Made by a program: the position numbers and the translations under genes. Shown piece after piece: positions 847-15,163 of a DNA stretch of 64,000 nucleotides. Source of the DNA: Clavelina lepadiformis. Its lineage: Eukaryota; Chordata; Ascidiacea; Aplousobranchia; Clavelinidae. A model generated the notes under the pieces. The model made no database searches and was not told the DNA's origin. It saw only the letters and a list, made by a program, of their open reading frames with translations. The stretch is taken from positions 15,817,501-15,881,500 of the forward strand of contig NC_135245.1 in assembly GCF_947623445.1 (NCBI RefSeq), written 5' to 3'. Numbering within the stretch: the stretch's first letter is position 1; each line of letters starts with the position of its first letter.

Positions 847-2242
847 TTGTAGAGCCTCAAAAAATTGAAATTAAAGAAAAAATTTTGAAAACACCTTAAG
901 TCGTTTTCAAGTTATTGCAATATGAATTTTTCACCACTTGAAGGAGATTAGGTTGGTGAACACTGGTCACTCGTAGTGATTTTCTTCAATATATATGTTT
1001 ATTTATAAAAGTACAATAATAAACAAATGACATTGTTACCATTTTTGGTGTCAAGGAATTTATTTCAGCAGTTAAAAATTTCTTAAACACCTCCTTTATA
1101 TAATAACTTAGGGTTTTTGAATGTAGATCCAAGGTTAATTTTATGGCACAATTAAAAAATAGCAATGATCTCCGAAACAAAACTTTAGAATATTTGTGTG
1201 GTATGATTCAATTATTTTCCTATATCCAAAAATTATGAACTTGTTTTTTGAGCTTAAAGAGTGAAATGAGTTTGAACAAGTGCTTGACATTTTACGACAT
1301 CAAGTTTGGATCAATAGAGACTATCTTCCAACAATAATAAATAGCAGCACATGCAATTGATATATTTTTTGAAACATTTATCAAAATATCTGATTGCACG
1401 AAAGCTGCTGTTTTATCCTTGTATAAAAATGATGAATACGAATTTACCTAACTCAACTTTTCAAAAATCTGCCCAGTTTCCATTAGAAAGGTCCTGTGCT
1501 CTAGCTTGGCCTTTTTCCTAAAGAAATTTTACAAAACTTAACTTTTGAAACAGTTAAGGAATAAATTCCTATACCTTCTATCATTTTTAATCAAAATTTT
1601 TGTTTGCAGTTAAAATATTCACATTATAATTCTATTATGATTAACTTAAAGTCTGTGTATGTTCTGTCATGTGTGAGTATAACTAGCAATTAAATCACCT
1701 AATAGTAAAATACAACGATACCAGAATTTGCTTACTAAGCATTGCATGTGGCCATGTAATTGAGATTATGTTGTTTATGTCTTGAACCAATTTCTACTTT
1801 TGAATCGCTTACAAATTCAATTTTCCAGTTTTATGAAGTGCCTTTGTCTTTAGCCCCACTAGGACCAAGTATGACAGTATCACAATAACTTTTTTACTCT
1901 TTAAGCTCAAAAAACAAGTTCACAATTTTTGGATACAGGAAACTACTTGAACCACACTACAAAAAATTTCACAAATTTTGTTTTGGAGATCGTTGCTATT
2001 TTTATAATTGTATTATGAACTGGATCTTTGATCTTCATTCAAAAACTCTAACTTATTATGTGAATGAGATGTTTAAGATTTTTTATCTGCTCAAATGAAT
2101 TCCTTGACACCAAAAATGGTAACAATGACACTTGTTTCATTATTCTATACAGTACTTCCTCGATTATCCGGTCAAGTTGGGTCAATATTTTCAAAAATCT
2201 GACCGGATAAGCAAAAAAAACGGATAATTGAATTTGTATTTT

Positions 2243-2429
2243 TACCGAGCACGCACGCAAATCGCCGCCATGGGCCTGACACCCGCTATGGGACGAAGCC
2301 TCGATCAGAAGGACGCGGGCGATGCGCGCAAGACGAATTCTATACGCCACAATTCCGGAGCGCTCCAAAAGCGACCGGATTCGGCGATGGGCTCATCCCG
2401 CTTCACTCGCCGTTACTGAGGGAATCCTC

Positions 2430-2476
<47 letters not shown>

Positions 2477-2500
2477 AGTCTCGTCCGACCTCAGGCCGAA
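2243..2500 (-). rRNA. 28S (LSU) rRNA 5'-end fragment inside the transposon
   Basis: Read on the minus strand, the region near 2410-2490 has the universally conserved LSU start, including CGCTGAATTTAAGCATAT and the AGCGGAGGAAAAGAAACTAA block, followed by the start of the D1 region. It stops near 2243 where transposon-specific sequence begins. Only about 250 bases of the roughly 3-4 kb LSU gene are present, so it cannot produce a functional 28S rRNA. Confidence 0.93.
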
Positions 2501-2727
2501 ATGTAAGAGACGTCACACGTGCCGAGGATCGACGACGTTCGCGATCGATCGCGGCGACTTGGCGAAACGAGGACACCTCTTCGAGGTCGATCCGCCGCCG
2601 CCGCGCTCTCCGATCGCGTGCCGGACCCTTGCTGACTTCGACGGGACGGCGGAGACACAGGTCTCCGTCCGACTCCGCATTCGCCCGGGCGACGGGCTCG
2701 CCGGGATTGCTTTTCAGACGACCCTGA
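2501..2727 (-). other. Internal transcribed spacer 2 (ITS2)
   Basis: This GC-rich spacer lies between the 5.8S and 28S segments in normal rDNA order on the minus strand. Its boundaries are inferred from the conserved genes on either side. It is short, roughly 230 bases. Confidence 0.8.
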
Positions 2728-2889
2728 GGCGGGCGTGGTCCCGGGATTAACCCGAGGCCGCAATTCGCGTTCAGAACGTCGATGCTCAATGTGTCCTTCA
2801 ATTCACACTAATTCACGCAGCTAGCTGCGTCCTTCATCGACTCGCGAGCCGAGTGATCCACCGCCAAGAGCCATCATCGTTTATCGTTT
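2728..2889 (-). rRNA. 5.8S rRNA, apparently full length, inside the transposon
   Basis: On the minus strand the segment contains the conserved 5.8S blocks GGCGGTGGATCACTCGGCTC, GTCGATGAAGGACGCAGC, GCGTGAATTAGTGTGAATTG and the terminal GAACGCGAATTGCGGCC. The length, about 160 bases, is normal. Ends are approximate. Small differences from the usual metazoan 5.8S (GAAGGACGC where GAAGAACGC is common; AATTAGTGTG where AATTAATGTG is common) could be species-specific or decay in this copy. Confidence 0.92.
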
Positions 2890-3103
2890 CAGCTTCTACG
2901 AAGCAGTCACAGGTTTGAATGTGAGCGCCGAGCGGACGATCTGACGACCGTCACTTGAAACCGCGGGGGTACTCGACGCCCGTGAAAGACTTGTGCCTTG
3001 TCGAGCGCCTCAACGGGCGCGTCTTGACCTCGACAAGCGCGAGAGGCGGCCGGTTTCCCGGCGACGCCGCCGCAGCTCGAGCGGGAGCCTCCGTTCGTTT
3101 CGA
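2890..3103 (-). other. Internal transcribed spacer 1 (ITS1)
   Basis: The spacer lies between the 18S 3' end and the 5.8S start on the minus strand. It is GC-rich and about 210 bases long. Boundaries come only from the flanking conserved rRNA ends. Confidence 0.8.
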
Positions 3104-3161
<58 letters not shown>

Positions 3162-3272
3162 AATGATCAAGTTAGATCGTCTTTTCGGACACCGGTTCGG
3201 CCGTTGCCAGCCGCTCCGGGTCCAATCGGAGGACCTCACTAAACCATTCAATCGGTAGGAGCTACGGCGGCG
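3104..3272 (-). rRNA. 18S (SSU) rRNA 3'-end fragment inside the transposon
   Basis: On the minus strand the sequence runs through ACCGATTGAATGGTTTAGTG, then GTAACAAGGTTTCCGTAGG and ends GAACCTGCGGAAGGATCATTA, the conserved 3' terminus of eukaryotic SSU rRNA. Only about 170 of roughly 1800 bases are present. Upstream of about 3272 the similarity ends and unrelated AT-rich transposon sequence begins. Confidence 0.93.
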
Positions 3273-3826
3273 GTTCAACGTCAATTGAAAAATAAAAACC
3301 AGAGTAATCTCACGCATATGATAGTTGCAAGTGCAATCATGCGAAGTAAAACGACCTCCCAAAGTCATTGATCACTCGGCCGGATAATCGAATGCCGGTT
3401 AAACGAGGGACGGATAATCGAGGAAGTACTGTATTCAGAATTGGAGATATTAAAGAAAATCACTATGTGTGACCAGTGTTCACCAACCTAATCTCCCTCA
3501 AGTGGTAAAAAATTCAAATCGCAACTACTCGAAAATGACATGAGACGTTTTCACAATTTTTCTTTAATTTTAAATTTTTGGAGCTCTGCCACATATATCC
3601 AAACCATCAAAATTTATGTCTAGTGGTTACAATATTTAAAAAAAAGCTGGTTGATTGCTAAACATGGAATTGCTCTTTTATGATTTTTAAAGACTAAATT
3701 TTTGCTATGTTTTTACTTTTGGAATGGAAAGGAATAGTTTGCAATCATCAAAGCATTCTGAATAGCTTGTATATATATATATTCTATAAATAGTAACTGC
3801 CAACAACGGAAGCATCAGAAAAGTAA

Positions 3827-15163
<11,337 letters not shown>

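Follow-up and report, generated by a model that had tools for sequence, protein, structure and literature searches.

A transposon with Tigger-like ends in Clavelina lepadiformis carries about 1.02 kb of ribosomal DNA (rDNA), and at least 24 copies of it, complete from one terminal inverted repeat (TIR) to the other, lie on eight of the nine chromosomes. One copy is in the window, the 64,000-nucleotide stretch of DNA that was analysed, inside an intron of an apparent DNA-repair gene. With sequence that is not of transposon origin between both TIRs of one element, it is a Pack-TIR by structure. Taken jointly, the observations are best explained, very probably correctly, by one capture of rDNA followed by spread in trans.

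The window element occupies positions 2150-3431 (1,282 bp), exact to the base as the earlier note had placed it, and reads CAG...CTG with TA on both sides at 2148-2149 and 3432-3433, as that note also had it. It starts CAGTACTTCCTCGATTATCCG, and its other end is the exact reverse complement. The claim of exact inverted ends holds, and the length of 20 bases given for them was slightly short: the perfect TIRs are 21 bp, and together with flanking bases the exact match is 24 nt (2147-2170 and 3411-3434). Rfam gives gathering-level matches to LSU, complete 5.8S and SSU, all on the minus strand, which bears out the reading of the interior as the 18S 3' end, ITS1, full 5.8S, ITS2 and 28S 5' end in normal order. 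Within the element, rDNA covers 2246-3262 on the minus strand. The LSU match (2145-2475) scores 110.3 bits, or 136.7 bits when 2130-2720 is searched alone; its alignment is strong over about the first 100 positions and weaker nearing the junction, and its course across the TIR is model overreach, because 2150-2245 is transposon arm. The SSU match (3112-3274, 113.5 bits) continues past 3262, where identity with native 18S stops; the native 18S match in the window runs up to GGTAGTAGC (GGTAGGAGC in the window copy). The parts are as follows.

2088-2147, no strand: left portion of the target, a dispersed host repeat; the joined flanks match 40 junction-crossing places
2148-2149, no strand: left TA (target duplication); 22 of the 24 rDNA-bearing copies have TA on both sides
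2150-2170, plus strand: left TIR, 21 bp; exact match to the right end
2150-2245, plus strand: transposon arm on the left, 96 bp; same sequence as the left end of L044, a relative of 2,450 bp
2246-2475, minus strand: 5' part of the 28S rRNA gene (Rfam RF02543); about 20 nt beside the transposon arm weakly supported
2476-2718, minus strand: ITS2; between the Rfam LSU and 5.8S matches, and matching the native unit L036
2719-2872, minus strand: complete 5.8S rRNA gene (Rfam RF00002, 120 bits, model 1-154)
2873-3111, minus strand: ITS1; between the Rfam 5.8S and SSU matches, and matching the native unit L036
3112-3262, minus strand: 3' end of the 18S rRNA gene (Rfam RF01960 and alignment with native 18S)
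3263-3280, no strand: 18-nt filler at the right junction; aligned in 23 copies, its pattern with variants in 24 of 24
3281-3431, plus strand: transposon arm on the right, 151 bp; L049, L050 and L066 match it at 99-100% identity
3411-3431, minus strand: right TIR, 21 bp; exact match to the left end
3432-3433, no strand: right TA, seen in the sequence
3434-3491, no strand: right part of the target host repeat, from the joined-flank search and comparison
3844-3962, plus strand: SMC5 exon with the Walker A motif; AG before, GT after

The gene around the element is presumably SMC5, a name taken from SMC5 motifs; an NCBIfam search with the SMC5 exon gave no hits. Its likely first exon, ending GSIIRIALQNFL, is just upstream of the window, and the Walker A exon lies downstream of the element, which is therefore in intron 1, consistent with the location claimed earlier.

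The genome searched comprises 209 Mb in 95 contigs; the kaClaLepa1.1 assembly is described as 210.1 Mb in 102 scaffolds, at 117-fold PacBio HiFi coverage (PMC10884593). A search with the element gave at least 47 matches (best 40 of 185 candidates scored). Copies with both TIRs and rDNA, the object of a check proposed in the earlier note, number at least 24 (the window and L011-L033): four on contig C1, three on C2, six on C3, three on C4, two on C5, two on C6, three on C7 and one on C9. The suggested spread of rDNA to dispersed sites is thus seen directly. Terminal bases are altered in L015 and L026. Copies diverge from their consensus by 0.23-2.59%. Two further loci, L034 (C1:3414224) and L035 (C1:3174547), have rDNA and the right end, lack the left end and are not among the 24. 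These rearranged half-copies lie 240 kb apart in opposite orientation and are equal at 4,620 of 4,630 bases, so they represent one duplicated segment.

The right junction and its filler (with the listed variants) are common to all 24 copies, which rules out a separate capture for each copy. An assembly artefact, with reads from rDNA wrongly joined to a transposon locus, might draw on the poor state of native rDNA in the assembly (L040 and L041 end in 18S, and the native unit has a run of N and no 28S start). Such an artefact is extremely improbable, as the same right breakpoint and filler recur in 24 copies with different flanking sequence, private mutations are present in single copies, and the assembly has 117-fold HiFi coverage (PMC10884593). 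The left junction takes form A in 19 copies and form B in L022, L029, L031 and L032, and is odd in L023. Alignment of 23 copies leaves out L030, which has a 529-bp nested insertion; in the poorly resolved tree of these 23, the form-B copies are one clade with 99% support. The two main forms imply that the left end was remodelled after capture. Form B probably arose later than the capture, perhaps by exchange with a plain element.

The L024 site without the element is present in the flank of L022, where 115 of 118 bases equal the joined L024 flanks and a single TA stands at the insertion spot; L022 and L024 occupy copies of a single host repeat, each inserted at its own position. This is the clearest case of a clean single-TA unoccupied target, clearer than the window site. 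There, the joined flanks (with one TA) gave at least 41 matches at 82-89%, 40 of them across the junction (best 40 of 106 candidates scored). The 22 relatives that were compared are collinear through the site and none has TA at the insertion point, the dinucleotide being, by eye, CC in 16, AC in four, TC in one and CG in one; the window site therefore needed two substitutions or small changes. Unoccupied relatives of the targets support precise insertion, and their presence for two target sites leads us to reject both misassembly and local insertion of rDNA. Insertion of rDNA into a single element is rejected as well. The target repeat occurs at least twice in the SMC5 intron (window 948-1068, and 2088-2147 with 3434-3491), and the relative at 948-1068 is not collinear at the insertion point.

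The parent transposon has left many relatives. A 24-base end pattern, with up to 2 mismatches, occurs 126 times genome-wide and its reversed control 0 times, so the element ends are beyond chance. From at least 100 places, 29 end-pattern loci without rDNA were taken in, and 28 gave both ends; loci left out include C2:16887399, C3:14338737, C4:6667785, C5:4154926, C6:13021063, C6:16204018, C6:17172758 and C7:11231502. Of the 28 rDNA-free elements, three measure about 2.45 kb; another four, of 2.06-2.08 kb, are without a stretch on the right-hand side; fourteen more are shorter forms with deletions, and the other seven contain sequence absent from the 2.45-kb form. TA is on both sides in 26 of the 28 pairs. 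In four relatives of 2.06-2.45 kb (L043, L046, L047 and L048) one uninterrupted frame runs from stop to stop over 548-557 aa; the transposase frames of L044, L045 and L052 are shortened or split. The L044 protein (460 aa) has the Pfam domains DDE_1 (6.7e-44), HTH_Tnp_Tc5 and CENP-B_N, with a DD34D spacing of residues picked by motif. An NCBIfam search with the transposase gave no hits. Among the 120 relatives listed for L044, four are named jerky-like or TIGD2-like, and jerky and TIGD2 are described as derived from Tigger (PMC7386202).

Like the Tigger elements described within the pogo superfamily, the family shows a duplicated TA target, short TIRs (21 bp here, where 40 bp or less is type 1), CENP-B/Tc5-type and DDE_1 domains and a spacing within DD29-36D; unlike the Tigger described, this is a non-autonomous derivative with rDNA replacing the interior (PMC7386202). 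Domains and the names of relatives place the element ends as derived from a Tigger/pogo transposon, in line with the non-autonomous pogo/Tigger element first proposed, whose parent family with open frames is in the same genome. The right 151 bp match only L049, L050 and L066 among the 28 rDNA-free elements, so that the donor probably belonged to this subfamily.

The cargo can be compared with one native unit, L036 (C7:2643000-2652900), which matches it at 98.2% over 788 bp. Over about 770 positions there are nine substitutions and a 3-nt indel: ITS2 has three of the substitutions, ITS1 five together with the indel, 18S one and 5.8S none, so that the comparison of captured ITS with this one native unit comes to eight substitutions and one 3-nt indel. 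The 18S substitution is at a site also variable among other 18S copies of the genome. At the fixed differences the native state is found in none of the 23 aligned copies, except at 801 in L032 and at 802 in L015, and the cargo is therefore of single origin. The differences would be expected if the native spacers changed after capture, and a variant donor is possible instead. They would also suit an element that a related tunicate passed on already loaded, through horizontal transfer or introgression, and that spread afterwards, with 5.8S unchanged and ITS altered; transfer of Tigger between animals is stated in the literature (PMC9219625). The same pattern, however, results if native ITS changed after capture in this species, and the full-length relatives L043-L045 in the same genome share the element ends at 99-100%, so that arrival from outside is distinctly unlikely.

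The L036 unit is a parental copy of the cargo elsewhere in the genome, and none was found for the 28S 5' part: a search for a native 28S 5' end outside element copies gave 28 matches, all within 26 element copies. The left breakpoint thus has no source for comparison, because the native 28S 5' end was found in element copies alone. At L036 7002-7320, apparent 28S interior is joined straight to the ITS2 side, with the first 28S part absent and a run of N adjoining; the missing 28S start is due either to a deletion or to an assembly fault. Copies of 18S (the two units in L036 and L037-L041) differ at one or more sites, with C or T at consensus position 1055, and 18S is therefore heterogeneous here. 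Overall, native rDNA is poorly assembled, with the L040 and L041 contigs ending inside 18S.

Neither the 18S and 28S bodies nor the intergenic spacer belong to the cargo. Among 23 copies the mutation load is 0.80% in 5.8S, 0.84% in ITS2, 0.98% in ITS1, 0.92% in the right arm, 0.36% in the left arm, 0.50% in 18S and 1.61% in the 28S part, where the high value is probably due to an indel-rich alignment. Since the loads of 5.8S, ITS and right arm are alike, no selection on rRNA is visible, and constraint on the cargo is not apparent when 5.8S (0.80%) is set against ITS (0.84-0.98%). A functional rRNA gene is ruled out, 5.8S mutating about as fast as ITS. No ribosomal role can be seen for the cargo in its sequence.

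The captured kilobase of the earlier note is thus confirmed as a cargo of about 1.02 kb, and its capture is a step that we infer. A Tigger transposon of C. lepadiformis, close to L049, L050 and L066, would have lost its interior, and the nuclear rDNA segment from the 18S 3' end to the 28S 5' end would have taken its place. Probably a break in the element was repaired by copy synthesis that switched template to the abundant rDNA, and the right junction was closed with the 18-nt filler; gap-filling and FoSTeST models have been described (PMC8277862), and the filler is consistent with error-prone joining. The chimera would have retained both ends and the subterminal repeats, and may therefore have been mobile in trans by the transposase of intact relatives, moving by cut-and-paste into TA sites to reach at least 24 places on eight chromosomes, SMC5 intron 1 among them. 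Several observations do not sit easily with the capture model: the right junction is filler, not clean microhomology; the left breakpoint has no native 28S source; the left junction has two main forms; the load is uneven, with 1.61% in the 28S part and 0.50% in 18S; and none of the 22 compared relatives of the window target has TA at the insertion point.

The rDNA might instead have come through RNA, if reverse transcription of an unprocessed pre-rRNA fragment had taken place into a break of the transposon. The cargo lies entirely inside the pre-rRNA transcript in the same order, and a fungal hAT element is known to have captured a histone H3 transcript (PMC6710886), yet the junctions examined show no poly(A) tract or processed rRNA end and no result sets this route apart from DNA copying; we regard it as unlikely. 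Composite mobilisation, in which two transposon end fragments flanked an rDNA segment in the array and were excised with it as a unit, could account for the collinear single piece of rDNA and for arms of different depth (96 and 151 bp). It requires, however, that rDNA had contained two truncated ends, suitably oriented and separated by about 1 kb, the native stretches L036, L040 and L041 (which are incomplete) contain no element end, and the filler would be unexpected; this origin is very unlikely. Capture by copying of DNA, followed by spread in trans, remains our preferred reading.

A second dispersed repeat in the genome also has rDNA. Its rDNA is 18S, shortened at the start by about 120-170 nt, together with 35 bp of ITS1, and the repeat occurs at three loci that are 97-98% alike (C3:10158900-10163000, C6:17127308-17130500 and C1:3052900-3057200; L037, L038 and L039 with L071-L075). 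The ITS1 breakpoint is the same at all three, with ends TAGTCCAGTC; more of the 18S start is absent from the C1 copy, which has long inverted repeats at its ends. A search of these loci for Tigger ends found none, and the repeat is apparently an independent transposon capture of rDNA. It is doubtful, though conceivable, that rDNA is a recurrent cargo of DNA transposons here, as two inverted-end repeats with different rDNA pieces at several loci each might suggest. If so, transposon breaks close to the nucleolus may preferentially be repaired from rDNA as the template, and the dispersed islands of rDNA could act as seeds for ectopic recombination and for new rDNA loci; nucleolus organisers have long been suspected of moving in this way.

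Other cargo is present among the Tigger-family elements. L054, L060 and C6:13021395 (the last from search matches alone) have a GC-rich insert (0.57-0.58) of up to 640 bp, a piece of which is also at other genome places at 76-95%. The frame of the L054 insert gave nothing above cut-off in Pfam and, in PDB, an R2 retrotransposon protein at a non-significant E of 0.6. This retroelement-like insert, whose frame weakly recalls R2 proteins, may be another multicopy capture. The insert of about 350 bp in L056 and L070 was rejected as a capture, being a common dispersed repeat (best 40 of 486 candidates scored) and therefore probably a nested insertion.

The animal survey of Tan et al. 2021 describes four multicopy Pack-TIRs in 100 reference genomes and a family in fly populations, Ssk-FB4, with TcMariner accounting for 115 of 370 Pack-TIR cases (PMC8277862). 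The element described here resembles those in having host sequence between the ends of a TIR transposon, for which a template-switch origin was proposed, and differs from them in number, the frog example having three copies (PMC8277862) against at least 24 here. The main text of that survey uses none of the words rDNA, rRNA, ribosomal and pogo (PMC8277862). The fungal hAT elements with histone H3 are likewise cut-and-paste elements that amplified a captured gene, but their cargo is a protein gene, the superfamily is hAT and the copies number tens or hundreds (PMC6710886); copy number alone is therefore not new, as those elements amplified histone H3 further. Pokey (PMC3849761) and R1/R2 (PMC10257491) are also mobile elements tied to rDNA. 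They insert into it, whereas here the rDNA is inside the element and away from the array. Among the titles and abstract openings of the open-licence literature, with most subscription papers and preprints outside that scope, no DNA transposon carrying rDNA in this way was found. As far as that literature shows, a Tigger element that carries rDNA at two dozen sites is without precedent.

Transposons are often blamed for the scattering of rDNA across chromosomes. A long-read study of moths favoured satellite arrays over mobile elements for the movement of rDNA (PMC10257491). In this tunicate, a piece of rDNA carried by a cut-and-paste transposon to at least 24 sites can be followed at base resolution. 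The copies preserve an rDNA spacer variant outside the array. They also mislead rRNA annotation, since 24 of the 25 5.8S loci listed for the assembly are transposon copies and one is native (best 40 of 7,045 candidates scored), and an ITS survey of C. lepadiformis could pick up transposon copies.
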